DNA of 64,000 nt from Mimachlamys varia (lineage: Eukaryota; Mollusca; Bivalvia; Pectinida; Pectinidae). The first letter of the stretch is position 1. Each line of letters starts with the position of its first letter. Location: NCBI GenBank assembly GCA_947623455.1, contig OX392527.1:9916001-9980000 (forward strand). The letters run 5' to 3'. Below the pieces are notes generated by a model. That model saw nothing but the letters and a program-made list of their open reading frames with translations. It did not search any database and was not told the origin of the DNA. Below, piece by piece: positions 22,723 to 64,000 of this stretch. The position numbers and the translations under genes were made by a program.

Positions 22723-23043
22723 GTCAGTACAAGGTCACACACAAGTAGGTCACAGCACCCCTGGGTGATCAGTACCAGGTCACACACAAGTAGGTCACAG
22801 CATCCCTGGGTGATCAGTACCAGGTCACACACAAGTAGGTCACAGCATCCCTGGGTGATCAGTACCAGGTCACACACAAGTAGGTCATAGCACCCTGTGT
22901 GATCAATACCAGGTCACACACAAGTAGGTCGCAGCACCCCTGGGTGATCAGTACCAGGTCACACACAAGTAGGTCACAGCACCCGTGGGTGATCAGTACC
23001 CGGTCACACACAAGTAGGTCACAGCACCCGTGGGTGATCAGTA
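22723..23043. repeat. 45-bp array starting at a BICC1 donor, ~7 copies
   Basis: Units of GGTCACACACAAGTAGGTCA, CAGCACCCCTGGGTGATCAG and TACCA. The real donor reads AAAG|GTCAGTACAAGGTCAC; the copies read GATCAGTACCAGGTCAC, so the splice GT has become AT in each. The array starts at the splice junction itself. Confidence 0.93.
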
Positions 23044-23706
23044 CAAATCACTTAGAAATTTCTCCCAAGGAAAATAGACTATCAATCTTTTTTAGTTTTG
23101 AAAAAATAGAGAAGTAAGATGAAGTAGGATGTATCCCATATAGAAAGTCTGCACTGTTATAAAGACATAGGCGTTAGTGATAACAGTCGATGCTGGAGTT
23201 GATATTTACGAAAAAAACTTACCAGTGTTATTTTATTTTTGTTCAGTTATTAAAAAAATGCAATTCTTTCCCATGATGTTTTTGAGTAGTCGTCAAACTA
23301 CTTAGTTAGAAAACATTTTTAATTAGAAATTTATTACAAGCAGATGGTTTAATTAATGTACTTGATGTGTAAAAAGTTCTTCATGAAGTTTTAACTGACC
23401 TGATGTGGTAAACATCATAACGTAATAGGCAGTCAGTGCTGTTATTATCAGTCTATTACAAGATAAATCAGATAGGACAGGGCTTGGGGGGAAAGTTGAA
23501 TTTAAGTCCCTTCCATGTAAAGGAAATGGAAATATATATTAAAATGAAGGAGTAAAATCTATCACTTGGCTGGTGTAATGTGCGGCGGCACTTGACTTTA
23601 TCTGACATTCAACCATCATTGTAATTGAAATAAGATGTAAGTCTGAAAAAGATATGACATAGGGGGAGTGTGGAATGAGTCATAGTGCTGGGACAGGCTT
23701 ATATAC
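23044..23706. other. Intron sequence, nothing recognised
   Basis: AT-rich, between the 45-bp array and the 7-kb compound array. No ORF or element recognised. Confidence 0.6.
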
Positions 23707-26700
23707 ACTACAATACCCAGGGGAAGGGACACCGGTACTACAATACCCAGGGGTAGGGGCACCAGGACTATAATACCCAGGGGTAGGGACACCAGTACTA
23801 TAATACCCAGGGGTAGGGGCACCAGTTACATAATACCCAGGGGTAGGGGCACCAGTACTATAATACCCAGGGGTAGGGACACCAGTACTATAATACCCAG
23901 GGGTAGGGGCACCAGTTACATAATACCCAGGGGTAGGGGCACCAGTACTGTAATACCCAGGGGTAGGGACACCAGTACTACAATACCCAGGGGTAGGGAC
24001 ACCAGTGCTATAATACACAGGAGTAGGGGCACCAGTTATATAATACCCAGGGGTAGGGACACCGTTACTACAATACCCAGGGATAAGGGCACCAGTACTA
24101 CAATACCCAGGGGTAGGGGCACCAGTACTACAATACCCAGGGGTAGGGACACCAGTACTACAATACCCAGGGGTATGGGGCACCAGTACTACAATACCCA
24201 GGGGTAGGGACACCAGTACTATAATACACAGGGGTAGGGACACCAGTACTATAATACCCAGGGGTAGGGACACCAGTACTATAATACCCAGGGGTAGGGA
24301 CACCAGTACTATAATACACAGGGGTAGGGACACCAGTACTATAATACACAGGGGTAGGGACACCAGTACTATAATACCCAGGGGTAGGGACACCAGTACT
24401 ATAATACCCAGGGGTAGGGACACCAGTACTATAATACCCAGGGGTAGGGACACCAGTACTATAATACACAGGGGTAGGGACACCAGTACTATAATACACA
24501 GGGGTAGGGGGCACCAGTACTATAATACACAGGGGTAGGGACACCAGTACTGTAATACCCAGGGGTAGGGACACCAGTACTACAATACCTAGGGGTAGGG
24601 GGCACCAGTACTACAATACCCAGGGGTAGGGACACCAGTACTACAATACCCAGGGGTAGGGGGCACCAGTACTACAATACCCAGGGGTAGGGACACCAGT
24701 ACTATAATACCCAGGGGTAGGGGGCACCAGTACTATAATACCCAGGGGTAGGGGCACCAGTACTACAATACCCAGGGGTAGGGGGCACCAGTACTATAAT
24801 ACCCAGGGGTAGGGACACCAGTACTATAATACCCAGGGGTAGGGACAGCAGTACTACAATACCCAGGGATAGGGACACCAGTACTATAATACCCAGGGGT
24901 AGGGACACCAGTACTACAATACCCAGGGGTAGGGACACCAGTACTACAATACCCAGGGATAAGGGCACCAGTACTACAATACCCAGGGGTAGGGGCACCA
25001 GTACTACAATACCCAGGGGTATGGGGCACCAGTACTACAATACCCAGGGGGAGGGACACCAGTACTGTAATACACAGGGGTAGGGGGCACCAGTACTATA
25101 ATACACAGGGGTAGGGACACCAGTGCTATAATACAAAGGGGTAGGGACACCAGTACTATAATACCCAGGGGTAGGGACACCAGTACTATAATACCCAGGG
25201 GTAGGGACACCAGTACTATAATACCCAGGGGTAGGGACACCAGTACTATAATACACAGGGGTAGGGACACCAGTACTATAATACACAGGGGTAGGGGGCA
25301 CCAGTACTATAATACACAGGGGTATGGGGCACCAGTACTATAATACCCAGGGGTACGGACACCAGTACTATAATACCGAGGTGTAGGGACACCAGTACTA
25401 CAATACCCAGGGGTAGGGGCACCAGTACTGTAATACCCAGGGGTAGGGACACCAGTACTGTAATACCCAGGGGTAGGGACACCAGTACTACAATACACAG
25501 GGGTATGGGGCACCAGTACTATATTACACAGGGGTATGGGGCACCAGTACTATAATATACAGGGGTAGGGACACCAGTACTGTAATACCCAGGGGTAGGG
25601 ACACCAGTACTACAATACCCAGGGGTATGGACACCAGTACTACAATACCCAGGGGAAGGGACACCAGTACTACAATACCCAGGGGTAGGGACACCAGTAC
25701 TACAATACCCAGGGGTAGGGGGCACCAGTACTGTAATACCCAGGGGTAGGGACACCAGTACTGTAATACCCAGGGGTAGGGACACCAGTACTACAATACC
25801 CAGGGGTATGGACACCAGTACTACAATACCCAGGGGAAGGGACACCAGTACTACAATACCCAGGGGTATGGGGCACCAGTACTATATTACACAGGGGTAT
25901 GGGGCACCAGTACTATAATACACAGGGGTAGGGACACCAGTACTGTAATACCCAGGGGTAGGGACACCAGTACTACAATACCCAGGGGTAGGGACACCAG
26001 TACTACAATACCCAGGGGAAGGGACACCAGTACTACAATACCCAGGGGTAGGGACACCAGTACTACAATACCCAGGGGTAGGGACACCAGTACTACAATA
26101 CCCAGGGGTAGGGACACCAGTACTACAATACCCAGGGGTAGGGGGCACCAGTACTACAATACCCAGGGGTAGGGACACCAGTACTACAATACCCAGGGGT
26201 AGGGGGCACCAGTACTACAATACCGAGGGGTAGGGACACCAGTTCTATAATACCCAGGGGTAGGGGGCACCAGTACTATAATACCCAGGGGTAGGGACAC
26301 CAGTACTACAATACCCAGGGGTAGGGGGCACCAGTACTACAATACCGAGGGGTAGGGACACCAGTACTATAATACCCAGGGGTAGGGACACCAGTACTAC
26401 ATTACCCAGGGGTAGGGACACCAGTACTATAATACCCAGGGGTAGGGACACCAGTACTATAATACACAGGGGTAGGGACACCAGTACTACAATACCCAGG
26501 GGTAGGGACACCAGTACTACAATACCCAGGGGTAGGGACACCAGTACTACAATACCCAGGGGTAGGGGGCACCAGTACTACAATACCCATGGGTAGGGAC
26601 ACCAGTACTACAATACCCAGGGGTAGGGGGCACCAGTACTACAATACCGAGGGGTAGGGACACCAGTACTATAATACCCAGGGGTAGGGGGCACCAGTAC

Positions 26701-27055
26701 TATAATACCGAGGGGTAGGGGCACCAGTACTACAATACCCAGGGGTAGGGGGCACCAGTACTATAATACCCAGGGGTAGGGACACCAGTACTATAATACC
26801 CAGGGGTAGGGACACCAGTACTACAATACCCAGGGGTAGGGACACCAGTACTATAATACCCAGGGGTATAGGGACACCAGTACTATAATACACAGGGGTA
26901 GGGACACCAGTACTACAATACCCAGGGGTAGGGGGCACCAGTACTACAATACCCAGGGGTAGGGACACCAGTACTATAATACCCAGGGGTAGGGACACCA
27001 GTACTGCAATACCCAGGAGTAGGGGCACCAATACTATAATACCCAGGGGTATGGG
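23707..27055. repeat. 30-bp minisatellite, ~110 copies (part 1 of compound array)
   Basis: Units of CCAGGGGTAGGGACACCAGT plus ACTATAATAC, with 31-bp variants in the G run (GGGGGCACC or TATGGGGCACC). The period is a multiple of three, giving apparent ORFs on the minus strand of up to 267 codons. The + strand has two runs of three to five G per unit. Confidence 0.97.
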
Positions 27056-27470
27056 GCATCAGTTTATTTACAATACACAGGGTAAGAGGGCACCAGTACA
27101 TTTACAATTCACAGGGTAAGAGGGCACCAGTACATTTACAATACACAGGGTAAGGGGGCACCAGTACATTTACAATACACAGGGTAAGGGGGCACCAGTA
27201 CATTTACAATACACAGGGTAAGGGGGCACCAGTACATTTACAATACACCGGATAAGGGGGCACCAGTACATTTACAATACACAGGGTAAGGTGGCACCAG
27301 TACATTTACAATACACAGGGTAAGGGGGCACCAGTACATTTACAATACACAGGGTAAGGGGGCACCAGTACATTTACAATACACAGGGTAAGGGGGCACC
27401 AGTACATTTACAATGCACAGGGTAAGGGGGCACCAGTACTTTTAAAATACCCAGGGTTAGGGGCACCAAT
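27056..27470. repeat. ~35-bp minisatellite, ~11 copies (part 2 of compound array)
   Basis: Units of GGGCACCAGTACATTTACAA plus TACACAGGGTAAGGG. It keeps the G-run and CACCAGTAC of the 30-bp units and introduces the CATTTAC segment of the 36-bp units, so it is a transitional form. Confidence 0.93.
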
Positions 27471-30400
27471 ACATTTACTACCATACCCAGGGTAAGGGGG
27501 CACCAGTACATTTATTATCATACCCAGGGGTAGGGGGCACCAGTACATTTACTATCATACCCAGGGGTAGGGGGCACCAGTACATTTATTATCATACCCA
27601 GGAGTAGGGGCACCAGTATATTTATTATCATACCCAGGGGTAAGGGGACACCAGTACATTTATTATCATACCCAGGGGTGGGGGACACCAATACATTTAC
27701 TATCATACCCAGGGGTAGGGGACACCAGTACATTTACTACCATACCCAGGGGTGGGGGCACCAGTACATTTACTACCATACCAAGGGGTAGGGGACACCA
27801 GTACATTTACTACCATACCCAGGGGTAGGGGACACCAGTACATTCACTACCATACCCAGGGGTGCGGACACCAGTACATTTACTACCATACCCAGGGATA
27901 GGGGGCACCAGTACATTTACTACCATACCTAGGGGTGGGGACACCAGTACATTTACTACCATACCCAGGGATAGGGGGCACCAGTACATTTACTACCATA
28001 CCCAGGGGTGGGGGCACCAATACATTTACTACCATGCCCAGGGGTGGGGGACACCAATATATTTACAACCATACCCAGGGGTAGGGGACACCAATACATT
28101 TACTACCATACCCAGGGGTGGGGACACCAGTACATTTACTACCATACCCAGGGGTAAGGGGCACCAGTACATTTACTACCATACCCAGGGGTGGGGGCAC
28201 CAGTACATTTACTACCATACCCAGGGGTGGGGACACCAGTACATTTACTACCATACCCAGGGATAGGGGGCACCAGTACATTTACTACCATACCCAGGGG
28301 TGGGAACACCAGTACATTTGCTACCATACCCAGGGATAGGGGGCACCAGTACATTTACTACCATACCCAGGGGTGGGGACACCAGTACATTTACTACCAT
28401 ACCCAGGGGTTGGGACACCAGTACATTTACTACCATACCCAGGGATAGGGGGCACCAGTACATTTACTACCATACCCAGGGGTGGGGACACCAGTACATT
28501 TACTACCATACCCAGGGGTGGGAACACCAGTACATTTACTACCATACCCAGGGATAGGGGGCACCAGTACATTTACTACCATACCCAGGGGTGGGGGCAC
28601 CAGTACATTTACTACCATACCAAGGGGTAGGGGACACCAGTACATTTACTACCATACCCAGGGGTAGGGGACACCAGTACATTCACTACCATACCCAGGG
28701 GTGCGGACACCAGTACATTTACTACCATACCCAGGGATAGGGGGCACCAGTACATTTACTACCATACCTAGGGGTGGGGACACCAGTACATTTACTACCA
28801 TACCCAGGGATAGGGGGCACCAGTACATTTACTACCATACCCAGAGGTGGGGACACCAGTACATTTACTACCATACCCAGGGATAGGGGGCACCAGTACA
28901 TTTACTACCATACCCAGGGGTGGGAACACCAGTACATTTGCTACCATACCCAGGGATAGGGGGCACCAGTACATTTACTACCATACCCAGGGGTGGGGAC
29001 ACCAGTACATTTACTACCATACCCAGGGGTTGGGACACCAGTACATTTACTACCATACCCAGGGATAGGGGGCACCAGTACATTTACTACCATACCCAGG
29101 GGTGGGGACACCAGTACATTTACTACCATACCCAGGGGTGGGAACACCAGTACATTTACTACCATACCCAGGGATAGGGGGCACCAGTACATTTACTACC
29201 ATACCCAGGGGTGGGGACACCAGTACATTTACTACCATACCCAGGGGTGGGGACACCAGTACATTTACTACCATACCCAGGGGTGGGGGGCACCAGTACA
29301 TTTACTACCATACCCAGGGATAGGGGGCACCAGTACATTTACTACCATACCCAGGGGTGGGGACACCAGTACATTTACTACCATACCCAGGGGTGGGGAC
29401 ACCAGTACATTTACTACCATACCCAGGGATAGGGTCACCAGTACATTTACTACCATACCCAGGGGTGGGGACACCAGTACATTTACTACCATACCCAGGG
29501 GTGGGGACACCAGTACATTTACTACCATACCCAGGGGTGGGGACACCAGTACATTTACTACCATACCCAGGGGTGGGGACACCAGTACATTTACTACCAT
29601 ACCCAGGGGTGGGAACACCAGTACATTTGCTACCATACCCAGGGATAGGGGGCACCAGTACATTTACTACCACACCCAGGGGTGGGGACACCAGTACATT
29701 TACTACCATACCCAGGGATAGGGGGCACCAGTACATTTACTACCATACCAAGGGGTGGGGACACTAATACATTTACTACCATACCCAGGGGTGGGGGGCA
29801 CCAGTACATTTACTACCATACCAAGGGGTGGGGACACTAATACATTTACTACCATACCCAGGGGTGGGGGGCACCAGTACATTTACTACCATACCAAGGG
29901 GTGGGGACACTAATACATTTACTACCATACCCAGGGGTGGGGGGCACCAATACATTTACTACCATGCCCAGGGGTGGGGGACACCAATATATTTACAACC
30001 ATACCCAGGGGTAGGGGACACCAATACATTTACTACCATACCCAGGGGTGGGGACACCAGTACATTAACTACCATACCCAGGGGTGGGGACACCAGTACA
30101 TTTACTACCATACCCAGGGGTGGGGACACCAGTACATTTACTACCATACCCAGGGGTAAGGGACACCAATACATTTACTACCATACCCAGGGGTAAGGGA
30201 CACCAATACATTTACTACCATACCCAGGGATAGGGGGCACCAGTACATTTCCTACCATACCCAGGGGTGGGGACACCAATACATTTACTACCATACCCAG
30301 GGGTGGGGGCACCAGTACATTTCCTACCATACCCAGGGGTGGGGACACCAATACATTTACTACCATACCCAGGGGTGGGGGCACCAGTACATTTCCTACC

Positions 30401-30690
30401 ATACCCAGGGGTGGGGACACCAGTACATTTACTACCATACCCAGGGGTGGGGGGCACCAGTACATTTACTACCATACCCAGGGGTAAGGGGCACCAATGC
30501 ATTTACTACCATACCCAGGGGTGGGGGCACCATTACATTTACCACCATACCCAGGGGTGGGGACACCAGTACATTTACCTCCATACCCAGGGGTAGGGGG
30601 GCACCAATACATTTACTATCATACCCAAGGGTAGGGGGTATCTGTACATTTACTACAATACCATGGAGTATGGGGCACCAGTACATTTCC
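27471..30690. repeat. 36-bp minisatellite, ~88 copies (part 3 of compound array)
   Basis: Units of CCCAGGGGTGGGGACACCAG plus TACATTTACTACCATA, with 37-bp variants (GGGATAGGGGGCACC). Variant order shows internal block copies: patterns at 28248 recur at 28868 (offset 620) and patterns at 27862 recur at 28701 (offset 839). Confidence 0.97.
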
Positions 30691-32222: not shown

Positions 32223-32384
32223 AGTAACCGTGTGACACTAAAGATGGATGTATCCCACACAGACCACTCCCATGTGATAGGCAAGGGAGGTAACAACATC
32301 AAAAGGGTGATGCAGGAAACAGGCTGTCACATCCACTTTCCAGATTCAAACAGAGGCAACAATGTACAGGAGAAGAGTAACCAG
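32223..32384 (+). CDS. BICC1: BICC1 exon: first canonical KH domain (GKGG)
   Basis: The 162-nt exon has an acceptor TTTTGAGCAG and a donor CAG|GTAAGT. Its 54 codons begin SNRVTLKMDVSH. The RNA-binding GXXG loop is GKGG (residues 20-23 of the exon product), flanked by VI and NNIKRVM, followed by ETGCHIHFPDSN, the signature of Bicaudal-C KH domains. It is nearly identical to human BICC1 over its length, with a few substitutions in the GNNVQEK stretch. Phase 0 at both ends. This is the strongest single piece of evidence for the gene. Confidence 0.97.
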
Positions 32385-32497
32385 GTAAGTAGAGGGATTA
32401 CCTGTACTTAAGTATGTCCAAACCATTTGTAAATAGGCTGAGACTTTATTTAAATTTATATTTTATATCTATAATTATTTGTGTTAAGTAACCGTGA

Positions 32498-33146: not shown

Positions 33147-33179
33147 TCTGTGAATGATTTTAACTACTTCCCATTTTAG

Positions 33180-33233
33180 GTATCTATAGCAGGACAACCA
33201 GCAGGAGTAGAATCTGCTCGGGCACAAATTAGG
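33180..33233 (+). CDS. BICC1: BICC1 exon: VSIAGQPAGVESARAQIR, end of KH
   Basis: This 54-nt exon encodes 18 residues, VSIAGQPAGVESARAQIR, the last strand and helix of the first canonical KH domain; human BICC1 has VSIAGQPAGVESARVRIR. The acceptor is CCCATTTTAG and the donor AGG|GTAAGT, phase 0 on both sides. Its last 18 nt together with the donor are repeated in tandem just downstream (33234-33483). Confidence 0.96.
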
Positions 33234-33483
33234 GTAAGTGTATATACCAGCTCGGGCACAAATTAGGGTAAGTGTATATACCAGCTCGGGCACAAATTAG
33301 GGTAAGTGTATATACCAGCTCGGGCACAAATTAGGGTAAGTGTATATACCAGCTCGGGCACAAATTAGGGTATGTGTATATCCAAGCTCGGACACAAATT
33401 AGGGTATGTGTGTATACCATATCAGGCACAAATTAGGATATGTGTATATACCAGCTCAGGCACAAATCAGGGTAAGTGTATAT
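33216..33483 (+). repeat. 34-bp array of the BICC1 exon end plus 5' splice site
   Basis: Each unit is the last 18 nt of exon 33180-33233 (GCTCGGGCACAAATTAGG) followed by GTAAGTGTATATACCA. The real donor GT is at 33234 and copies follow every 34 bp (33268, 33302 and on), seven after the real one. The first three copies keep GTAAGTG, two have GTATGTG, one has lost the GT, and the last again has GTAAGTG. In frame, TAG at 33264-33266 precedes the first duplicate donor. Confidence 0.95.
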
Positions 33484-33486
33484 ACC

Positions 33487-38099: not shown

Positions 38100-39188
38100 A
38101 CTAGGTACATTAACTGTGTTTTGTACTTTCTGTCACACGGAACTGTTACCGTTAGAGTTATAGAACTAGGTTCCTTAACTGTGTTTTGTACTTTCTGTCC
38201 CACGGAACTGTTACCGTTAGAGTTATAGAACTAGGTACCTTAACTGTGTTTTGTACTTTCTGTCCCACGGAACTGTTACCATTAGAGTTATAGAACTAGG
38301 TTCCTTAACTGTGTTTTGTACTTTCTGTCCCACGGAACTGTTACCGTTAGAGTTATAGAACTAGGTTCCTTAACTGTGTTTTGTACTTTCTGTCACACGG
38401 AACTGTTACCGTTAGAGTTATAGAACTAGGTACCTTAACTGTGTTTTGTACTTTCTGTCACCAGAAACTGTTACCATTAGAGTTATAGAACTAGGTTCCT
38501 TAACTGTGTTTTGTTCTTTCTGTCACACGGAACTGTTACCGTTAGAGTTATAGAACTAGGTACCTCAACTGTGTTTTGTACTTTCTGTCACCAGGAACTG
38601 TTACCGTTAGAGTTATAGAACTAGGTTCCTTAACTGTGTTTTGTACTTTCTGTCACACGGAACTGTTACCGTTATAAGAGTTATAGAACTAGGTTCCTTA
38701 ACTGTGTTTTGTACTTTCTGTCACACGGAACTGTTACCGTTAGAGTTATAGAACTAGGTACCTTAACTGTGTTTTGTACTTTCTGTCACCAGAAACTGTT
38801 ACCATTAGAGTTATAGAACTAGGTTCCTTAACTGTGTTTTGTTCTTTCTGTCACACGGAACTGTTACCGTTAGAGTTATAGAACTAGGTACCTCAACTGT
38901 GTTTTGTACTTTCTGTCACCAGGAACTGTTACCGTTAGAGTTATAGAACTAGGTTCCTTAACTGTGTTTTGTACTTTCTGTCACACGGAACTGTTACCGT
39001 TATAAGAGTTATAGAACTAGGTTCCTTAACTGTGTTTTGTTCTTTCTGTCACACGGAACTGTTACCGTTAGAGTTATAGAACTAGGTTCCTTAACTGTGT
39101 TTTGTTCTTTCTGTCACACGGAACTGTTACCGTTATAAGAGTTAAAGAACTAGGTTCCTTAACTGTGTTTTGTACTTTCTGTCACCAG
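38100..39188 (+). repeat. 65-bp array of a BICC1 3' splice site plus exon start
   Basis: About 16 units precede the real acceptor. Each has TTCCTTAACTGTGTTTTGTA, CTTTCTGTC, then the acceptor region and GAACTGTTACCGTTAGAGTT, a diverged copy of the first bases of exon 39189-39428 (GAACTGTTGCCGTTGGTGTT). Most copies have lost the AG (CACACGGAAC or CCCACGGAAC); two keep CACCAGGAAC and two have CACCAGAAAC. All copies read ELLPLEL then TAG. A five-unit block with the same variants occurs twice (offset ~329). Confidence 0.94.
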
Positions 39189-39428
39189 GAACTGTTGCCG
39201 TTGGTGTTTATGTTTGAGTTACCAGTGTCGGGAGTACTGCAGCCTCTCCCCGACGCTTCGTCACCAACCATTCTGCAGCTACAACAGCAGTACAACGTCG
39301 CTATCAGCTTCCGCCAGCGACCTCGTGTCTATGCAACGACAGTGATTGTGAGGGGCACTGTATGTAACGCCAAGTCTGTGAAGGAGGGCACAGCTAGTCT
39401 TATGGAGCACCTAACAAGCAATGTGTCT
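39189..39428 (+). CDS. BICC1: BICC1 exon: KH-like domain
   Basis: The 240-nt exon (80 codons) starts ELLPLVFMFELPVSGVLQPL and ends KEGTASLMEHLTSNVS. It corresponds to the human segment ELLPLVLMFELPIAGILQPV through VKEGTAMLLEHL, a KH-like domain that lacks the GXXG loop and serves in protein contacts. The acceptor TTTCTGTCACCAG and donor TCT|GTAAGTA are canonical, phase 0 at both ends. About sixteen tandem copies of the acceptor plus the first coding bases lie immediately upstream. Only the final copy continues into the open reading frame; the others carry an in-frame TAG after seven codons. Confidence 0.95.
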
Positions 39429-44643: not shown

Positions 44644-44856
44644 GCACCACTGCCGGTCAGTATGCAGCTAGAGATTGCCCCTCAGCACCACTTGTTCATC
44701 ATTGGCCGAGGTGGTATGAACGTGAAGCAGATTATGACGAGGACAGGGGCGAGTATCCACTTTCCGGATCCCACCACTGTCACGCCTCAGAGAAAGGGCA
44801 CCTTCTACATCACTGGTAACATAGAGAGTGTATTCCTGGCACGCCAGCATCTCATC
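44644..44856 (+). CDS. BICC1: BICC1 exon: second canonical KH domain (GRGG)
   Basis: The 213-nt exon (71 codons) begins APLPVSMQLEIAPQHHLFII. The GXXG loop reads GRGG (human GRNG) and is followed by MNVKQIMTRTGASIHFPDP, then a KGTFYITGNIESVFLARQHL strand-helix end. Acceptor TTCTGTGTCTCAG; donor ATC|GTAAGT, phase 0 at both ends. Residue identity to vertebrate Bicaudal-C is high around the loop and the IHFPDP motif. Confidence 0.96.
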
Positions 44857-45934: not shown

Positions 45935-45992
45935 GGTTGTCTGCCCCTGGTCCTTATGTTTGATGTAAAAGATGAGATAGACATGGATCAAG
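45935..45992 (+). CDS. BICC1: BICC1 exon: GCLPLVLMFDVKDEI segment
   Basis: A 58-nt exon with acceptor TTCCTTTACAG and donor AAG|GTAAAG encodes GCLPLVLMFDVKDEIDMDQ and leaves one G (phase 1). The human counterpart begins GCLPLVLMFDMKEEIEVD. It opens the second KH-like domain. Confidence 0.95.
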
Positions 45993-46450: not shown

Positions 46451-46524
46451 CTCGCATAACGCAACTGATGGAGCAGCTTGATGTCTTTATCAGTGTCAAA
46501 CCAAAACCCAAACAACCAAGCAAG
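46451..46524 (+). CDS. BICC1: BICC1 exon: QLMEQLDVFIS and KPKPKQPSK linker
   Basis: A 74-nt exon with acceptor CTTTTCCAG completes an Ala codon with the G from the preceding exon and continues RITQLMEQLDVFISVKPKPK then QPSK. Human BICC1 has AQLMEQLDVFISIKPKPKQP followed by SK. The donor is AAG|GTATGT and the exit phase is 0. The last 27 nt of the exon plus 11 nt of intron form the 38-bp unit of the downstream array. Confidence 0.95.
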
Positions 46525-47018
46525 GTATGTCCTCTAAACCAAAACCCAAACAACCAAGGAAGGTACGTCCTACTAACCAAAACCAAAACAACCAAGCAAG
46601 GTATGTCCTCCTAACCAAAACCAAAACAACCAAGCAAGGTATGTCCTCCAAACCAAAACCCAAACAACCAAGCAAGGTATGTCCTCTAAACCAAAACCAA
46701 AACAACCAAGCAAGGTACGTCCTCCTAACCAAAACCCAAACAACCAAGGAAGGTACGTCCTACTAACCAAAACCAAAACAACCAAGCAAGGTACATCCTC
46801 CTTACCAAAACCCAAACAACCAAGCAAGGTACGTCCTCCTAACCAAAACCCAAACAACCAAGCAAGGTACGTCCTCCTAACCAAAACCCAAACAACCAAG
46901 CAAGGTATGTTCTACTAACCAAAACCCAAACAACCAAGCAAGGTATGTTCTACTAACCAAAACCCAAACAACCAAGCAAGGTATGTTCTACTAACCAAAA
47001 CCCAAACAACCCAGCAAA
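46498..47018 (+). repeat. 38-bp array of the BICC1 exon end plus 5' splice site, ~13 copies
   Basis: Each unit is the last 27 nt of exon 46451-46524 (AAACCAAAACCCAAACAACC then AAGCAAG) plus 11 nt of intron (GTATGTCCTCT). The real donor GT is at 46525; the next is at 46563. Most copies keep AAG|GTATGT or AAG|GTACGT. Donors one or two units down would shift the frame, and TAA at 46612-46614 stops readthrough before the third. Confidence 0.96.
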
Positions 47019-49825: not shown

Positions 49826-49988
49826 TCTGTGATTGTGAAGAGTATAGAGAGGAATGCTCCCAACATGTACCTGGCCCGTCTGACCATGCTAGGACTGAAG
49901 AGAGACGACAAAGCTTACCCTATCAGTAAAGCTGTGGATACAGATACAGGCATCCTTCAGAACAATGGACTCGGACTCTCAACTCTCG
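49826..49988 (+). CDS. BICC1: BICC1 exon: SVIVKSIERNAPNMYLAR, end of KH-like 2
   Basis: A 163-nt exon with acceptor TACTTGTAG and donor TCG|GTAAGG. It reads SVIVKSIERNAPNMYLAR then LTMLGLKRDD, matching human SVIVKSVERNALNMYEARKC, and afterwards diverges into a linker ending NNGLGLSTL (human has a similar GLGLTGLGLL stretch). Phase 0 in, phase 1 out. Confidence 0.93.
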
Positions 49989-50040
49989 GTAAGGTTTTAA
50001 ACTCATTTGGCACACTCGGTATCTGGAACAGAGTGCTATA

Positions 50041-50721: not shown

Positions 50722-50737
50722 TCTGGCTAGATTTTTG

Positions 50738-54596: not shown

Positions 54597-57500
54597 GTCT
54601 AAATATGTTGTCACCTCTGTTTATCCTTACCTGTTGTCACCCCTGGTTATCCTTACCTGTTGTCACCTCTGTTTAACCTTACCTGTTGTCACCTGTGTTT
54701 AGCCTTACCTGATGTCACCTCTGTTTATCTTTACCTGTTGTAACCTCTGTTTATCCTTACCTGTTGTCACCCCTGTTTATCCTTACCTGTTGTCACCTCT
54801 GTTTAACCTTACGTGTTGTCACCTGTGTTTAGCCTTACCTGATATCACCTGTGTTTATCTTTACCTGTTGTAACCTCTGTTTATCCTTACCTGTTGTCAC
54901 CTCTGTTTAACCTTACCTGTTGTCACCTCGGTTTATCCTTACCTGATGTCACCTCTGTTTATCCTTACCTGTTATCACCTCTGTTTATCGTTACCTGTAG
55001 TCACCTCTGTTTATCCTTACCTGTTGTCACCTGTGTTTATCTTTACCTGTTGTAACCTCTGTTTATCCTTACCTGTTGTCACCTCTGTTTAACCTTACTT
55101 GTTGTCTCCCCTGTTTATCCTTACATGTTGTCACCTCTGTTTATCCTTACCTGTTGTCACCTCTGTTTAACCTTACCTGATGTCACCACTGTTTATCCTT
55201 ACCTGTTGTTACCTCTGTTTATCCTTACCTGTTGTCACCTCTGTTTATCCTTACCTGTTGTTACCTCTGTTTATCCTTACCTGTTGTCACCCCTGTTTAT
55301 CCTTACCTGTTGTCACCTCTGTTTAACCTTACCTGTTGTCACCTCAGTTTATCCTTACCTGATGTCACCTCTGTTTATCCTTACCTGTTGTCACCTCTGT
55401 TTATCGTTACCTGTTGTCACCTGTGTTTAGCCTTACCTGATGTCACCTCTGTTTATCCTTACCTGTTGTCACCTCTATTTATCCTTACCTGTTGTCACCT
55501 CTATTTATCCTTACCTGTTGTCACCCCTGTTTATCCTTACCTGTTGTCACCTCTGTTTAACCTTACCTGTTGTCACCTGTGTTTAGCCTTACCTGATATC
55601 ACCTGTGTTTATCTTTACCTGTTGTAACCTCTGTTTATCCTTACCTGTTGTCACCTCTGTTTAACCTTACCTGTTGTCACCTCGGTTTATCCTTACCTGA
55701 TGTCACCTCTGTTTATCCTTACCTGTTGTCACCTCTGTTTATCATTACCTGTAGTCACCTCTGTTTATCCTTACCTGTTGTCACCTGTGTTTATCTTTAC
55801 ATGTTGTAACCTCTGTTTATCCTTACCTGTTGTCACCTCTGTTTAACCTTACTTGTTGTCACCCCTGTTTATCCTTACCTGTTGTCACCTCTGTTTAACC
55901 TTACCTGTTGTCACCTCTGTTTATCCTTACCTGTTGTAACCTCTGTTTATCCTTACCTGTTGTCACCCCTGTTTATCCTTACCTGTTGTCACCTCTGTTT
56001 AACCTTACCTGTTGTCACCTGTGATTAGCCTTACCTGATGTCACCCCTGTTTATCCTTACCTGTTGTCACCTGTGTTTAGCCTTACCTGGTGTCACCTCT
56101 GTTTAACCTTACCTGTTGTCACCTCTGTTTATCCCTACTTGTTGTCACCTCTGTTTATCCTTACCTGTTGTCACCTGTGTTTAGCCTTACCTGATGTCAC
56201 CTCTGTTTATCCTTACCTGTTGTCACCTGTGTTTATCCTAACCTGATGTCACCTCTGTTTATCCTTACCTGCTGTCACCTCTGTTTAACCTTACCTGTTG
56301 TCACCTCTGTTTATCCTTACCTGTTGTCACCTCTGTTTATCCTTACCTGTAGTCACCCCTGTTTATCCTTACCTGTTGTCACCTCTGTTTATCCTTACCT
56401 GTAGTCACCTCTGTTTATCCTTACCTGTTGTCACCTCTGTTTAACCTTACCTGTTGTCACCTGTGTTTAGCCTTACCTGATGTCACCTCTGTTTATCCTT
56501 ACCTGTTGTCACCTCTGTTTAACCTTACCTGTTGTCACCTCTATTTATCCTTACCTGTTGTCACCTGTGTTTATCCTTACCTGTTGTCACCTCTGTTTAA
56601 CCTTACCTGTTGTCACCTCTGTTTATCCTTACTTGTTGTCACCTGTGTTTAGCCTTACCTGTTGTCACCTCTGTTTATCCTTACCTGATGTCACCACTGT
56701 TTATCCTTACCTGTTGTCACCTCTGTTTATCCTTACTTGTTGTCACCCCTGTTTATCCTTACCTGTTGTCACCTCTGTTTAACCTTACCTGTTGTCACCT
56801 GTGTTTAGCCTTACCTGATGTCACCACTGTTTAACCTTACCTGTAGTCACCTCTGTTTAACCTTACCTGATGTCACCACTGTTTATCCTTACCTGTTGTC
56901 ACCTGTGTTTAACCTTACCTGATGTCACCTCTGTTTAACCTTACATGTTGTCACCTCGGTTTATCCTTACCTGATGTCACCTCTGTTTATCCTTACCTGT
57001 TGTAACCTCTGTTTATCCTTACCTGTTGTCACCTGTGTTTAACCTTACCTGTTGTCACCTCGGTTTATCCTTACCTGATGTCACCTCTGTTTAACCTTAC
57101 CTGTTGTCACCTCTGTTTATCCTTACCTGTTGTCACCTGTGTTTAACCTTACCTGTTGTCACCTGTGTTTAGACTTACCTGATGTCACCACTGTTTAACC
57201 TTACCTGTTGTCACCTGTGTTTAGCCTTACCTGATGTCATCACTGTTTATCCTTACCTGTTGTCACCTCTGTTTATCCTTACCTGTTGTCACCTCTGTTT
57301 ATCCCTACTTGTTGTCACCTCTGTTTATCCTTACCTATTGTCACCTCTGTTTAACCTTACCTGTTGTCACCTGTGTTTAGCCTTACCTGATGTCACCTCT
57401 GTTTATCCTTACCTGTTGTCACCTGTGTTTATCCTAACCTGATGTCACCTCTGTTTATCATTACCTGTTGTCACCTCTGTTTAACCTTACCTGTTGTCAC

Positions 57501-58925
57501 CTCTGTTTATCCTTACCTGTTGTCACCTCTGTTTATCCTTACCTGTAGTCACCCCTGTTTATCCTTACCTGTTGTCACCTCTGTTTATCCTTACCTGTAG
57601 TCACCTCTGTTTATCCTTACCTGTTGTCACCTCTGTTTAACCTTACCTGTTGTCACCTGTGTTTAGCCTTACCTGATGTCACCTCTGTTTATCCTTACCT
57701 GTTGTCACCTCTGTTTAACCTTACCTGTTGTCACCTCTATTTATCCTTACCTGTTGTCACCTGTGTTTATCCTTACCTGTTGTCACCTCTGTTTAACCTT
57801 ACCTGTTGTCACCTTTATTTATCCTTACCTGTTGTCACCTGTGTTTAGCCTTACCTGTTGTCACCTCTGTTTATCCTTACCTGATGTCACCACTGTTTAT
57901 CCTTACCTGTTGTCACCTCTGTTTATCCTTACTTGTTGTCACCCCTGTTTATCCTTACCTGTTGTCACCTCTGTTTAACCTTACCTGTTGTCACCTGTGT
58001 TTAGCCTTACCTGATGTCACCACTGTTTAACCTTACCTGTAGTCACCTCTGTTTAACCTTACCTGATGTCACCACTGTTTATCCTTACCTGTTGTCACCT
58101 GTGTTTAACCTTACCTGATGTCACCTCTGTTTAACCTTACATGTTGTCACCTCGGTTTATCCTTACCTGATGTCACCTCTGTTTATCCTTACCTGTTGTA
58201 ACCTCTGTTTATCCTTACCTGTTGTCACCTGTGTTTAACCTTACCTGTTGTCACCTCGGTTTATCCTTACCTGATGTCACCTCTGTTTAACCTTACCTGT
58301 TGTCACCTCTGTTTATCCTTACCTGTTGTCACCTGTGTTTAACCTTACCTGTTGTCACCTGTGTTTAGACTTACCTGATGTCACCACTGTTTAACCTTAC
58401 CTGTTGTCACCTGTGTTTAGCCTTACCTGATGTCATCACTGTTTATCCTTACCTGTTGTCACCTCTGTTTATCCTTACCTGTTGTCACCTCTGTTTATCC
58501 CTACTTGTTGTCACCTCTGTTTATCCTTACCTATTGTCACCTCTGTTTAACCTTACCTGTTGTCACCCCTGTTTATCCTTACCTGTTGTCACCTCTGCTT
58601 ATCCTTACCTGTTGTCACCTCTGTTTATCCTTACCTGTTGTCACCTGTGTTTATCCTTACCTGTTAATGTCACCTCTGTTTAACCTTACTTGTTGTCACC
58701 CCTGTTTATCCCTACTTGTTGTCACCTCTGTTTATCCTTACCTGTAGTCACCTCTGTTTATCCTTACCTGTTGTCACCCCTGTTTATCCTTACCTGTTGT
58801 AACCCCTGTTTATCCTTACCTGTTGTCACCTCTGTTTATCGTTACCTATAGTCACCTCTGTTAATCCTTTCCTGTTGTCACCCCTGTTTATCCTTACCTG
58901 TTGTCACCCCTGTTTATCCTAAACT
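54597..58925. repeat. 26-bp minisatellite, ~165 copies, with a 1196-bp block duplication
   Basis: Units of CACCTCTGTTTATCCTTACC plus TGTTGT. Every variant pattern from about 56190 to 57385 recurs 1196 bp (46 units) downstream, so one large block was duplicated in tandem. The + strand motif ATCCTTACCTG matches the U1 snRNA 5' end at 10 of 11 positions; the minus strand reads CAGGTAAGG, a 5' splice-site consensus. Apparent ORFs are artefacts. Confidence 0.97.
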
Positions 58926-58950
58926 ATTATCAACATGATCATAATTGTAG

Positions 58951-59109
58951 GCTTCCTTAGTCAAAACCTGCTGTCAGTCAACACTACCAATGCACTGCTG
59001 ATGCTCAATGGAAGTCCAGGCGGTACTTCGAGCCCCAACTCCGTCCCAAGTCCTCAGAATGTAAATGTCTCCTGTAGCAGTCCCAACCACTGGGTCACAC
59101 CTCCTCCAG
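58951..59109 (+). CDS. BICC1: BICC1 exon: low-complexity middle region
   Basis: A 159-nt exon (acceptor CATAATTGTAG, donor CAG|GTAAGT, phase 1 at both ends) encodes GFLSQNLLSVNTTNALLMLN followed by a Ser/Pro/Asn-rich stretch ending NHWVTPPP. Human BICC1 has a similar LSLNTSTTPNSLLNALN then SPTLWAPP stretch at this point. Similarity is weaker than in the KH exons but order, phase and composition fit. The exon end GTCACACCTCCTCCAG is the seed of the 25/26-bp donor array downstream. Confidence 0.88.
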
Positions 59110-60945
59110 GTAAGTTATGGTCACACCTCCTTCAGGTAAGTTATGGTCACACCTCCTCCAGGTAAGTTATGGTCACACCTCCTCCAGGTAAGTTACGGTC
59201 ACACCTCCTCCAGGTAAGTTAAGTCACACCTCCTCCAGGTAAGTTAAGTCATACCTCCTCCAGGTAAGTTATGGTCACACCTCCTTCAGGTAAGTTAAGT
59301 CACACCTCCTCCAGGTAAGTTACGGTCACACCTCCTCCAGGTAAGTTAAGTCACACCTCCTCCAGGTAAGTTAAATCATACCTCCTCCAGGTAAGTTAAG
59401 TCATACCTCCTCCAGGTAAGTTAAGTCACACCTCCTCCAGGTAAGTTAAGTCACACCTCCTCCAGGTAAGTTAAGTCACACCTCCTCCAGGTAAGTTAAG
59501 TCACACCTCCTCCAGGTAAGTTAAGTCACACCTCCTCCAGGTAAGTTAAGTCACACCTCCTCCAGGTAAGTTACGGTCACACCTCCTCCAGGTAAGTTAA
59601 GTCATACCTCCTCCAGGTAAGTTAAGTCATACCTCCTCCAGGTAAGTTAAGTCACACCTCCTCCAGGTAAGTTAAGTCACACCTCCTCCAGGTAAGTTAA
59701 GTCACACCTCCTCCAGGTAAGTTAAGTCATACCTCCTCCAGGTAAGTTAAGTCATACCTCCTCCAGGTAAGTTAAGTCACACCTCCTCCTGGTAAGTTAA
59801 GTCACACCTCCTCCAGGTAAGTTAAGTCACACCTCCTCCAGGTAAGCTACGGTCACACCTCCTCCAGGTAAGTTAAGTCATACCTCCTCCAGGTAAGTTA
59901 AGTCATACCTCCTCCAGGTAAGCTACGGTCACACCTCCTCCAGGTAAGTTAAGTCATTCCTCCTCCAGGTAAGTTAAGTCATACCTCCTCCAGGTAAGTT
60001 AAGTCATACCTCCTCCAGGTTAGTTAAGTCATACCTCCTCCAGGTAAGTTACGGTCACACTTCCTCCAGGTAAGTTAAGTCATACCTCCTCCAGGTAAGC
60101 TACGGTCACACCTCCTCCAGGTAAGTTATGGTCACACCTCCTCCTGGTAAGTTAAGTCACACCTCCTCCAGGTAAGTTAAGTCATACCTCCTCCAGGTAA
60201 GCTACGGTCACACCTCCTCCAGGTAAGCTACGGTCACACCTCCTCCAGGTAAGTTATGGTCACACCTCCTCCAGGTAAGTTAAATCATACCTCCTCCAGG
60301 TAAGTTAAATCATACCTCCTCCAGGTAAGTTAAATCATACCTCCTCCAGGTAAGTTATGGTCACACCTCCTCCAGGTAAGTTAAATCACACCTCCTCCAG
60401 GTAAGTTAAATCATACCTCCTCCAGGTAAGTTATGGTCACACCTCCTCCAGGTAAGTTAAGTCATACCTCCTCCAGGTAAGTTATGGTCACACCTCCTCC
60501 TGGTAAGTTAAGTCATACCTCCTCCAGGTAAGCTACGGTCACACCTCCTCCAGGTAAGTTAAGTCACACCTCCTCCAGGTAAGTTAAGTCACACCTCCTC
60601 CAGGTAAGTTAAGTCACACCTCCTCCAGGTAAGTTAAGTCATACCTCCTCCAGGTAAGTTAAGTCATACCTCCTCCAGGTAAGTTAAGTCATACCTCCTC
60701 CAGGTAAGTTAAGTCATACCTCCTCCAGGTAAGTTACGGTCACACCTCCTCCAGGTAAGTTAAGTCATACCTCCTCCAGGTAAGTTATTGTCACACCTCC
60801 TCCAGGTAAGTTAAGTCATACCTCCTCCAGGTAAGTTATGGTCACACCTCCTCCAGGTAAGTTAAGTCATACCTCCTCCAGGTAAGTTAAGTCATACCTC
60901 CTCCAGGTAAGTTACGGTCACACCTCCTCCAGGTAAGTTAAAGTA
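59094..60945 (+). repeat. 25/26-bp array of the BICC1 exon end plus 5' splice site, ~74 copies
   Basis: Each unit is the last 16 nt of exon 58951-59109 (GTCACACCTCCTCCAG) followed by GTAAGTTAT or GTAAGTTAA. The authentic donor GT is at 59110. Nearly all copies keep a perfect CAG|GTAAGT; a few read GTAAGCT or GTTAGT. In the exon frame, readthrough ends at TAA at 59163-59165. Confidence 0.97.
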
Positions 60946-61130
60946 ACCTTACATTTAAGTAAAGGTGATTTCACATGTAAGGATGTGTATCAAGTAATGA
61001 GGAATTACTCAAGAATGACCACCAAATGGTGTCCAAAAATGGAAACAATGATAGCCTGTTTAACTTTAAAACTAATGTTTATTGTTGATGCATGAAAACA
61101 TAACTATAATTTGCACACTGATGGTTTTTA
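60946..61130. other. Intron sequence, nothing recognised
   Basis: Short AT-rich spacer between the donor array and the next dispersed repeat. Confidence 0.6.
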
Positions 61131-61713
61131 GGTCATCTGACGTCACGATGACCTATAGTCATCGTGCTTTGTCCGCCACAGCTGCCATCTTGAAAAACAC
61201 ATTTCAAACTTCTTCTTAAGTTCCACTTGTGCGATTGAGCTGAAACTTACCTGACCAATCCTGAGATGGTCCCCGACAAAGTGTTGTTATTTTTCGGGTC
61301 GATCCAAAATCCAATATGGCCACCACAGCTGCCATCTTGAAAAACAACATTTCAAACTTCTGAAGTTCTATTGGTGCAATTGAGCTGAAACTTACTTGAA
61401 ATGATCCAGAGATGGTTCCGACCAAATGTTGTTATTTTTCGGGTCAGTCCAAAATTCAAGATGGCAGTCAAAGCCGTTATCTTGAAAAACACATTTAAAA
61501 GTTTTTACCAAGCTCCACTGGTGCAGTTGAGTAGAAAATTGGTGGGGTGTTAAGGATGAGAAGTCCATTAAAGTGTTGTTAATTTTATGATTCAAGAAAA
61601 CTTTGACATGGAAACCTATGCGGCCATTTTGTGACATTATTGTGCAATCACATTAGTATGATGAACTTTTAATTGATAGTCAGATGAACGTTAAGGCCCT
61701 TGGGCCTCTTGTT
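61131..61713. repeat. Dispersed repeat with GCCATCTTGAAAAAC subunits
   Basis: Near-terminal TCATCTGAC and GTCAGATGA are inverted; the 3' end is AAGGCCCTTGGGCCTCTTGT. Three ~140-150-bp subunits carry CACAGCTGCCATCTTGAAAA and GTTGTTATTTTTCGGGTC. The tail links it to the other GGGCCTCTTGTT repeats although the body differs. Confidence 0.78.
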
Positions 61714-62470
61714 TACTGATTGATATTTTGTTGTGATATTATGAAGCAAAGTTGGTCAGAATCAAACAAGGTGTCAACTGACCATACCTCAAGGTCACCA
61801 GGTCAAAGTTCAAGGTCATATTTTGCATTCATTAATTGCTTGACATTTTGAAAGAAAGTTGGTCAGCATATACAGATTTGCTTATAAGGGACGTGTATGT
61901 TTTTGTTCACTGAAACAAGTTTCTAGTTATATTTGATAATTAAGGAGTGGTCTACAATATCTACAAGCGAAATAAAATGGGGTCAATAATGGCCCCTCCA
62001 GGGGGTGCTTAAGGGTAAAAATTCAAATTTGTGTAATTTTAAACAAATTTGATAGAAAGCATCCCCTAGTGAAGGAGATATGAGTTTATGATAAAAAGTG
62101 GTTGTGATCCCTTGGACTCATAAGGGAGCAAAAGGGGTCAAAAACAATATCAACGAAACTTGGTTGCAATAATCTTTATACATTGTAGATATGCATAATC
62201 TATATAAGGTGGTTTGAAAGTTTGGTTGCCATGGTAATCAGGTCACTATACTTCAGTACTTTTTTTGGAGGGGGGGGGGGATTTGTCCAGACAACACATC
62301 ATAAACCAGTAAAAAGTTTTCAGGTTTTAAGGAACGTTAGAGATGATGTGTACATGTATCTGAAGTTAAAAGTTTTGTTGTCATCAACGTTGCATTATAA
62401 AAGTCATTGCAAAGGGTGGGGGAGTGGTGGAGTCTGGTAGCGGGGGGTATTAGTTAGCCATTTGCTTACA
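61714..62470. repeat. Dispersed repeat fragment, poly-G element family
   Basis: Contains TACCTCAAGGTCACCAGGTC, GGTTGCCATGGTAATCAGGT, a G run at 62269-62280 and the end TTAGTTAGCCATTTGCTTAC. The end and the GTTGCYATGGTAAYAGGTCA motif are shared with the element at 52785-53250. Limits are approximate. Confidence 0.6.
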
Positions 62471-62534
62471 GTTCTTGTTCGAAAGTACCCATACCAGTAT
62501 GTTTTTCTGTATTTGCCAATTTTATACAATCTAG

Positions 62535-62684
62535 GAATATATGGTCCTATGGTAGTCCTGAATCCGTCCACAACTTGTTCCGTCCAGAACCAGCTTGATC
62601 TAATTACACAATGTGGTGATCTGAGCAACAAGGACCTTCCTCAGAATGGATCATTCATTAATGTGCCTACATCCACCGATCAGG
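62535..62684 (+). CDS. BICC1: BICC1 exon: Ser/Asn-rich linker
   Basis: A 150-nt exon with acceptor ACAATCTAG and donor CAGG|GTAAGT, phase 1 at both ends, encodes GIYGPMVVLNPSTTCSVQNQ and ends FINVPTSTDQ. The linker is poorly conserved in the family, so the call rests on the clean open frame, matching phase, codon quality and position downstream of the other exons. The next intron begins with a tandem array of this donor. Confidence 0.78.
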
Positions 62685-64000
62685 GTAAGTGTGTTGACCT
62701 GGTCCACTAACCAGGGTAAGTGTGTTAACCTGGTCCACTAATCAGGGTAAGTGTTAACCTGGTCCACTAACCAGGGTAAGGGTTAACCTGGTCCATTAAC
62801 CAGGGTAAGGGTTAACCTGGTCCATTAACCAGGGTAAGTGTGTTGACCTGGTCCACTAACCAGGGTAAGTGTTAACCTGGTCCACTAACCAGGGTAAGTG
62901 TTAACCTGGTCCACTAACCAGGGTAAATGTGTTGACCTGGTCCATTAACCAGGGTAAGTGTGTTGACCTGGTCCACTAACCACTGTGAGTGTGTTGACCT
63001 GGTCCACTAACCAGTGTGAGTGTGTTGACCTGGTCCACTAACCAGGGTAAGCATGTTAACCTGGTCCACTAACCAGGGTAAGTGTGTTAACCTGGTCCAC
63101 TAACCAGGGTAAGTGTGTTGACCTGGTCCACTAGCCAGGGTTAGTGTGTTGACCTGGTCCACTTACCAGGGTAAGTGTGTTGACCTGGTCCACTAACCAG
63201 TGTGAGTGTGTTGACCTGGTCCACTAACCAGGGTAAGCATGTTAACCTGGTCCACTAACCAGGGTAAGTGTGTTGACCTGGTCCACTAACCAGGGTAAGT
63301 GTGTTGACCTGGTCCACTAGCCAGGGTTAGTGTGTTGACCTGATCCACTAACCAGGGTCAGTGTGTTGACCTGGTCCACTTACCAGGGTAAGTGTGTTGA
63401 CCTGGTCCACTAACCAGGGTAAGTGTGTTAACCTGGTCCACTAACCAGGGTCAGTGTGTTGACCTGGTCCACTAACCAGGGTAAGTGTGTTAACCTGGTC
63501 CACTAACCAGGGTAAGTGTTAACCTGGTCCACTAGCCAGGGTAAGTGTTAACCTGGTCCACTAACCAGGGTAAGTGTTAACCTGGTCCATTAACCATTGT
63601 AAGTGTGTTGACCTGGTCCACTAACCAGTGTGAGTGTGTTGACCTGGTCCACTAACCAGGGTAAGCATGTTAACCTGGTCCACTAACCAGGGTAAGTGTG
63701 TTGACCTGGTCCACTAGCCAGGGTTAGTGTGTTGACCTGGTCCACTAACCAGGGTTAGTGTGTTGACCTGGTCCTTTAACCAGGGTAAGTGTTTTGTCCT
63801 GGTCCATTAACCAGGGTAAGTGTGTTGACCTGGTGCATTAACCAGGGTAAGTGTGTTGACCTGGTCCACTTACCAGTGTGAGTGTGTTGACCTGGTCCGA
63901 TAAACCAGGGTAAGCATGTTAACCTGGTCCACTAACCAGGGTAAGTGTGTTGACCTGATCCACTAACCAGGGTAATTGTGTTAACCTGGTCCACTAACCA
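62672..64000 (+). repeat. ~31-bp array of the BICC1 exon end plus 5' splice site, ~43 copies, runs off the window
   Basis: Each unit is TCCACTAACCAGG, a diverged copy (10 of 13) of the exon end TCCACCGATCAGG, followed by GTAAGTGTGTTGACCTGG. Some units are shorter (GTAAGTGTTAACCTGG). The real donor GT is at 62685. Most copies keep CAGG|GTAAG; a minority read TGTGAGT or GTTAGT. In the exon frame TAA at 62708-62710 comes before the next donor. Confidence 0.95.

Follow-up and report, generated by a model that had tools for sequence, protein, structure and literature searches.

In amphioxus, tandem repeats spanning exon-intron boundaries, the so-called mirages, have been described in Adh3, the globins BflGb6 and BflGb9, troponin C and PGBD5; they are found at 5' and 3' boundaries, carry many intact AG and GT copies and reportedly leave splicing undisturbed, and their units measure 10-72 bp in Adh3 and 150-160 bp in the globins (PMC3087553, PMC3902484). 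In humans the 31-bp VNTR of CBS, c.1444_1467+7(16_21), has by its name a unit of 24 nt of exon plus the first 7 nt of the intron, and 844ins68 in the same gene is a duplicated intron 7/exon 8 junction of which the distal copy is spliced, yielding normal mRNA (PMC2630376). Additionally, internal tandem repeats detected with TRF at exon-intron boundaries of duplicated human genes may give rise to alternative splicing or to introns (PMC2812944), and AGGT-bearing duplication provides spare splice sites (PMC4974935, PMC3443670). The TSSK1-like gene of abalone harbours a 27-bp intronic minisatellite, which the accessible part of the article does not describe as junction-spanning (PMC6905558).

We have analysed the window, i.e. 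the whole 64,000-nucleotide stretch of scallop DNA, together with further junctions of the same genome. The arrays found at its splice junctions have the same structure as the amphioxus mirages, with donors and acceptors both affected in either animal (PMC3087553), and their kind is already known; new are the mollusc host, the many cases and the counts against controls. The amphioxus reports, in the parts available, describe single genes and do not set the number of cases against a chance expectation, whereas in the scallop 6-8 of 40 BICC1 junctions are affected (by two criteria), in addition to myosins and a protease. Studies of amphioxus also report instability and RT-PCR data; the scallop arrays are known from one assembly. 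The CBS VNTR has the same build as the 25-38-bp scallop donor units, but it concerns one human gene and the scallop arrays many junctions within one genome. The human boundary repeats are likewise tandem repeats found with TRF, but they were studied in segmental duplications, and there the repeat is often also kept in a transcript. Spare splice sites are common to AGGT-bearing duplications and the scallop arrays, and in the latter existing introns appear to have been lengthened. Neither a mollusc mirage nor an earlier count against chance was recognised in the open-access papers searched.

Junction arrays of the scallop BICC1 gene

The window contains exons 4-13 of the 21-exon scallop BICC1 (bicaudal C) gene (Table 1). 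These ten exons splice into an open frame of 450 amino acids with GT donors and AG acceptors throughout; the protein matches Pecten maximus BICC1 with 96% identity over 100%, and scallops are the top protein matches of the gene, for which reason amphioxus was rejected as the origin of this DNA. RNA families gave no match in the window at the gathering threshold.

Table 1. BICC1 exons and associated tandem arrays in the window
Feature	Position	Strand	Description	Basis
Exon A	22643..22722	+	donor GTCAGT	open frame
45-bp array	22724..23044	+	7.2 copies from intron base +2, not a junction copy	TRF, junction alignment
Exon B	32223..32384	+	without detectable junction copy	
Exon C	33180..33233	+	VSIAGQPAGVESARAQIR	open frame, protein alignment
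Donor array, exon C	33216..33486	+	34-bp unit x 8; 18 nt exon + 16 nt intron, GTAAGT donor inside unit	TRF, junction alignment
Acceptor array, exon D	38100..39202	+	65-bp unit, 16 upstream copies + functional copy	TRF, junction alignment
Exon D	39189..39428	+		open frame, protein alignment
Exon E	44644..44856	+	without detectable junction copy	
Exon E2	45935..45992	+	without detectable junction copy	
Exon F	46451..46524	+	terminal residues KPKPKQPSK	open frame, protein alignment
Donor array, exon F	46499..47017	+	38-bp period x 13.7; 26 nt exon + 12 nt intron	TRF, junction alignment
Exon G	49826..49988	+	without detectable junction copy	
Exon H	58951..59109	+		open frame, protein alignment
Donor array, exon H	59094..60941	+	25-26-bp unit x 73; 16 nt exon + CAG|GTAAGT donor in most copies	TRF, junction alignment
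Exon I	62535..62684	+		open frame, protein alignment
Donor array, exon I	62681..64000	+	31-bp unit, ~43 copies within window	TRF, junction alignment

A near copy of the 30-nt junction sequence was detected in the adjoining intron at 5 of the 20 window junctions (four donors and one acceptor), with alignment scores of 17-30 against maxima of 12-17 in 300 shuffles each. It was confirmed that the donors at 33234, 46525, 59110 and 62685 carry arrays of junction-crossing units, and that 16 copies of the acceptor at 39189 lie upstream of it, as the initial annotation had stated. The exon share, put there at 13-27 nt for the donors, is 18, 26 and 16 nt by TRF at the first three donors and 14 nt at the acceptor; at 62685 only 4 nt are exact, and about 13 nt are obtained if mismatches are allowed. 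This last array continues outside the window as far as region coordinate 164576 (window-equivalent 64576). The acceptor unit of exon D comprises a branch-like sequence, a pyrimidine tract, the acceptor and the first 14 nt of the exon. A further array claimed at donor 22723 had to be withdrawn as a junction array: it starts inside the intron, in which no copy of the junction sequence was detected (alignment score 9, p 0.72). The supposed six of ten junction-bearing exons are corrected to five of ten exons, or five of twenty junctions.

The same five window junctions, without donor 22723, show the unit typical of mirages, composed of exon and intron of one boundary. Both 5' and 3' boundaries are involved (four donors and one acceptor in the window, and the acceptor y2 outside it), and the unit lengths, 25-65 bp in the window and 20-75 bp in the myosins, lie in the reported range. 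At the junctions examined each array unit corresponds to its own junction, and the units vary among loci. Since the unit consists of the exon end and the splice site, and the other aligned molluscs share its exon part as a conserved sequence (e.g. KPKPKQPSK at 46525), the exon is the source, which supports the original idea that the arrays were seeded from exon-intron junctions. Their one-way extension, away from the exon, was also seen; it is demanded by an intact mRNA, hence it is no independent evidence.

That these repeats were collapsed or inflated during assembly and are absent from the animal is extremely improbable. Array lengths are uncertain in any assembly, and one such array was aberrantly assembled in the B. 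floridae draft (PMC3087553), but the copies within the scallop arrays differ from one another, the arrays sit on a 65.8-Mb contig, and they occur at unrelated loci, each with a locus-specific unit.

Counts of junction arrays against chance

Tandem arrays occupy 58% of the window, therefore some overlap with junctions is expected by chance. Random placement of the exons over the whole window gave a mean of 0.68 overlaps against the observed 5 of 20 junctions (P for at least five, 0.0006), placement in the gene part only a mean of 0.76 (P for at least five, 0.00095), and a rotation null 0.32 (P 0.0002). Array edges lay near 8 of the 20 junctions, 1.60 being expected under the null (P 0.0001). 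GC bias was rejected as the cause of the excess (weight 1.06), adjustment for it raising the expected overlaps from 0.68 to 0.72.

Another 20 BICC1 junctions, located beyond the window, gave three overlaps against 0.50-0.63 (P 0.012-0.026; P 0.06 under a looser 45-nt cut) and array edges near seven junctions against 1.2-1.5 (P 0.0001-0.0003). For the whole gene this amounts to 8 of 40 junctions, compared to 1.2-1.3 expected along the gene with the 30-nt cut. When the control was taken inside the same 450-nt flanks, the expectation rose to 3.66, i.e. an approximately twofold excess, and six junction copies stood against 3.81.

The arrays are not restricted to one gene, further cases being present in myosins and in a serine protease, at the donor of the TAGHCF motif, the latter outside all test counts. 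The myosin sample comprised 74 rows with 148 junctions elsewhere in the genome, of which 11 with weak splice-site scores were dropped, leaving 137. Under the first site rule, rows 1-40 (77 of 80 junctions) gave two overlaps against 1.64 (P 0.49) and edges near 6 of 77 junctions against 3.6 (P 0.15). This rule took the second donor copy in L057, and it was revised to prefer the site closest to where the match ends; this revised rule was set before the analysis of rows 41-74 and used on all 74 rows. It yielded 7 overlaps at the 137 junctions against 2.2-2.4 (P 0.008-0.011), or against 3.3-3.4 with the 45-nt cut (P 0.05-0.06), and junction copies at 9 of 137 against 3.5. By halves, with the 45-nt cut, there were 3 against 2.4 in rows 1-40 and 4 against 1.1 in rows 41-74. 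Three cases escape the overlap count, namely L045, whose array is called one unit late, L069 with about 70 nt of exon, and L058 with two copies; L093 is wrongly included, because its donor was called one unit too far, so that its array in fact begins at the junction without overlap. The verdict "beyond coincidence" of the initial annotation is thus moderately supported by the window, the further BICC1 junctions and the myosins, but in BICC1 the local control leaves only the approximately twofold excess mentioned above.

Splice junctions might be true mutational hotspots, duplicated in tandem more often than other intronic DNA, although we consider this rather doubtful. Such a hotspot would account for the excess of BICC1 and the myosins relative to other intron positions, for almost none of it being due to GC content, and for the clustering of array edges at BICC1 junctions (8 of 20 inside and 7 of 20 outside the window); AGGTAAGT-like sequence, breaks linked to replication or transcription, and RNA-DNA hybrids at splice sites are among its possible causes. 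On the other side stand the first-rule results of myosin rows 1-40 and the donor-like motifs, of which the 29 window arrays away from junctions show no clear excess when real GC-matched DNA serves as the control. With shuffled units as control, the antisense donor motif was found in 8 of these 29 arrays (Fisher 6e-6) and the sense motif in 2 (0.058); with real GC-matched DNA the figures were 2 (Fisher 0.013) and 2 (0.18). Donor-motif seeding was dropped as the main explanation, since the antisense signal fades under this control, and k-mer counts indicated that the array units are simply G-richer. Because the local control reduces the excess in BICC1 to about twofold, and the myosin P value reaches 0.05-0.06 with the 45-nt cut, the hotspot proposed initially is to be regarded as no more than a possibility. 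The same doubt applies to the notion that in the scallop lineage junctions are hotspots several-fold above the neighbouring intron DNA owing to a junction-tied process, in which splice sites would spawn intron-lengthening minisatellites. A longer survival of junction arrays would explain the excess as well.

Persistence, splicing and origin of the arrays

Such survival might come about if duplications arose everywhere and selection held the exon-proximal unit, which could re-seed and homogenise the array and keep it recognisable for longer. We can advance this only tentatively: in arrays C (rank 1/5) and I (rank 1/41) none of the copies compared is more typical than the exon-proximal one, and the donor GT is retained in the aligned copies of arrays F, H and I, but in arrays F (rank 12/12) and H (rank 68/71) the exon-proximal copy ranks with the least typical ones, and in array D the AG is kept in 4 and lost in 12 of the 16 upstream copies. 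A consistent polarity of the copies was rejected, as the arrays disagree. Loss of AG from upstream acceptor copies was discarded as a general rule, since the acceptor array y2 keeps it in 19 of 21 copies reading TTGACC.

It has also been considered that many donor copies could recruit U1 snRNP and thereby aid exon recognition or shield long introns from premature polyadenylation. The approximately 73 mostly intact CAG|GTAAGT units of array H and the 58 copies of GTAGGTT that follow exon y6, outside the window, would suit such a function, but conservation at positions +1 to +6 does not exceed that of the remaining unit in arrays C (0.92 vs 0.96), F (0.91 vs 0.95) and I (0.93 vs 0.95), and does so only slightly in H (0.98 vs 0.95). 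Furthermore, acceptors bear such arrays as well and most junctions have none, hence a functional role appears very unlikely.

None of the 120 distal G|GTA/G sites of the four window donor arrays keeps the frame open, and with 116 of them the lengthened exon would contain a stop. No insertion is seen at the array joints in the protein model of P. maximus, nor in that of Mizuhopecten where covered, which is weak evidence on splice choice. Judged from the sequence, RNA splicing probably takes the exon-proximal copy.

We consider it likely that the arrays are mirages, i.e. junction-spanning tandem duplications which have expanded and are tolerated since the copy next to the exon still serves in splicing. 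Each would have begun with 20-75 bp or so duplicated in tandem across an exon-intron boundary and then grown through slippage or unequal exchange, each array being derived from its own junction, as every unit matches its own exon end. A junction duplication would be tolerated where one within the exon often would not be, because the exon-adjoining copy retains a complete splice site and all extra copies fall in the intron. The moderate excess at junctions is best regarded as a mixture of this tolerance, high array turnover in the genome and perhaps a junction-linked bias in origin or persistence. In three BICC1 cases the array starts at the junction but includes no real copy of the exon, namely at donor 22723 and at the two y6 junctions, where the arrays share only 1-2 nt of exon; a pure model of seeds spanning the junction does not predict such cases.

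For scallop gene prediction these arrays call for caution, as they present dozens of false but well-formed splice sites. With the present counts, mirages, so far an oddity in a handful of amphioxus genes, become a frequent, countable feature of a mollusc genome, and being countable there, they make it testable whether tandem duplication favours junctions and how the spliceosome chooses among dozens of identical sites.

BICC1 and its junction arrays

The window spans positions 9,916,001-9,980,000 of a 65.8-Mb contig, in an assembly of 975 Mb in 71 contigs, and its plus strand carries ten BICC1 exons with GT donors and AG acceptors, which give an open frame of 450 codons when joined; after 200 kb of flanking DNA had been added, the full gene could be mapped as 21 exons, giving 1,101 codons and a stop with no internal stops. 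The source is a scallop, since the best relatives of the protein are scallops (the closest full-length one being Pecten maximus BICC1, 96% over 100%, followed by Mizuhopecten yessoensis, 98% over 77%).

Six junctions of this gene had been claimed in the initial annotation to carry tandem arrays built from the junction itself. Five of them were recovered by TRF, and the same five among the 20 window junctions showed a junction copy (alignment scores 17-30; shuffled maxima 12-17) in a comparison independent of TRF, which aligned 30 nt of sequence at each junction with the adjoining 400 bases of intron and with 300 dinucleotide-shuffled versions of them. Donor 22723 had to be dropped: the same 30-nt alignment to its adjoining intron revealed no junction copy, and the array there starts at intron base +2.

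BICC1 exons and junction arrays in BICC1 and myosin genes (window coordinates; y2 and y6, BICC1 exons outside the window; L numbers, myosin exon matches)
Feature	Position or locus	Strand	Unit and copies	Exon nt	Remark
BICC1 exon	22643-22722	+
BICC1 exon	32223-32384	+
BICC1 exon	33180-33233	+
BICC1 exon	39189-39428	+
BICC1 exon	44644-44856	+
BICC1 exon	45935-45992	+
BICC1 exon	46451-46524	+
BICC1 exon	49826-49988	+
BICC1 exon	58951-59109	+
BICC1 exon	62535-62684	+
Donor array	33234		34 bp x 8	18	TRF
Acceptor array	39189		65 bp x 16.8	14	TRF
Donor array	46525		38 bp x 13.7	26	TRF
Donor array	59110		25 bp x 73	16	TRF
Donor array	62685		31 bp x ~43 in window	4 exactly	TRF
Acceptor array	y2		46 bp	17	outside window
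Acceptor array	y6			2	outside window
Donor array	y6			1	outside window
Donor array	L045		35 bp x 12		clear by eye
Donor array	L057		33 bp x 14		clear by eye
Donor array	L046		73 bp x 2.6		clear by eye
Donor array	L069		75 bp x 5		clear by eye
Acceptor array	L038				clear by eye
Acceptor array	L058				clear by eye
Acceptor array	L082				clear by eye
Donor array	L062		two copies
Array	L093				begins exactly at likely donor; overlap overstated by automatic call
Array	L063				6 nt overlap, without strong copy
Array	L036				doubtful

Tandem arrays are very unevenly distributed in this genome, making up 58% of the window and about 60% of the 264-kb region that contains it (contig 9816001-10080000, units of at least 10 bp), against about 10% of myosin intron flanks elsewhere. 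Two BICC1 introns are almost wholly one donor-to-acceptor array (region coordinates 164845-165819 and 169239-171619, locus L002). Antisense near-consensus donor sequences (CAGGTAAGG, CAGGTAAGT) were seen in the arrays at 54606-58920 (about 166 copies) and 61176-61531; no antisense exon was noticed there. At 15777-16697 a DNA transposon remnant, probably a decayed Tc1/mariner-like copy, is marked by matches to Pfam HTH_24 (E 5e-6) and DDE_3 (E 2e-8), which fall in two open stretches separated by stops.

Junction arrays against chance expectation

Because the arrays are so dense, exons of equal lengths were placed randomly in array-free DNA, which gave a mean of 0.68 overlaps for the whole window and 0.76 for its gene part (P of at least five, 0.0006 and 0.00095); rotation of the exon set gave 0.32 (P 0.0002). 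Adjustment for GC raised the expectation from 0.68 to 0.72 only, and the excess was stable across TRF score cut-offs of 50-400. Array edges fell between -30 and +40 nt of the junction in 8/20 cases (null 1.60, P 0.0001). It should be noted that the P values for overlap are optimistic, since the window was chosen by a reader who had noticed the pattern; therefore sequence new to that reader was tested.

In the rest of BICC1, three of 20 junctions were overlapped by an array (null mean 0.50-0.63, P 0.012-0.026; P 0.06 with a 45-nt cut). Only y2 had a strong junction copy (score 27), the y6 acceptor (p 0.010) and donor (p 0.023) being marginal; edges within the same -30 to +40 nt were found at seven of the 20 (1.2-1.5 expected, P 0.0001-0.0003). 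Over all 40 junctions, 8 overlaps were observed where 1.2-1.3 were expected with the 30-nt cut and 1.8 with the 45-nt cut (P from <0.0001 to 0.0007). Under a stricter control within the same 450-nt flanks the excess was about twofold or less: 8 overlaps were seen where 3.66 were expected, and 6 junction copies where the expectation was 3.81.

Other genes

Searching with the myosin-head profile of Pfam yielded 74 exon matches, all of which were taken with 450-nt flanks; 11 of the 148 junctions were set aside for weak splice-site scores, and the remaining 137 were compared with pseudo-junctions within the same flanks, where array cover is 10% (49% in BICC1 flanks). Seven overlaps were found against 2.2-2.4 expected (P 0.008-0.011; with a 45-nt cut 3.3-3.4, P 0.05-0.06), together with nine junction copies against 3.5. 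By half, rows 1-40 gave 3 overlaps (2.4 expected) and rows 41-74 gave 4 (1.1 expected); under the first site rule, later changed, rows 1-40 had given 2 against 1.64 (P 0.49). Donors (10/89) and acceptors (5/88) did not differ significantly (P 0.28). A coding scan near BICC1 also uncovered a gene taken by its motifs to be serine-protease-like, which has a three-copy donor array, outside all test counts, at the end of its TAGHCF exon (region coordinates 235095-235190, L015).

Origin, splicing and known relatives

The unit of each array derives from the junction at which the array lies, and its exonic portion is conserved across the other aligned molluscs, which makes the exon the source of the unit. 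A duplication spanning the boundary would leave one complete site beside the exon body, while the remainder would fall in the intron, and slippage or unequal exchange might then multiply the unit. The exon-proximal site is probably the one used in splicing: of the 120 donor copies lying distally in the four arrays of the window, 116 would introduce a stop and not one preserves the open frame, and the protein models of related scallops, which may or may not carry the arrays themselves, contain no insertion at these joints. The one-way growth initially described follows from this model. No sign of selection on the extra donor sites was found, positions +1 to +6 being about as variable as the remaining unit; AG is lost in 12 of the 16 upstream acceptor copies at 39189 and kept in 19 of 21 copies at y2.

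The list of amphioxus mirages, minisatellites whose unit spans an exon-intron boundary, was extended with PGBD5 and troponin C (PMC3902484). In human CBS, the VNTR named c.1444_1467+7(16_21) (PMC2630376) has, going by that name, the same build as the scallop donor arrays, and the same source reports 844ins68, a duplicated junction spliced to normal mRNA; internal repeats at human exon-intron boundaries are surveyed in PMC2812944. The kind of structure is already known; the novelty lies in its occurrence in a mollusc, in how many cases there are and in the counts made against controls. The junction excess over nearby intron DNA may reflect a mutational bias, the longer persistence of arrays that a selected copy anchors, or partly chance.
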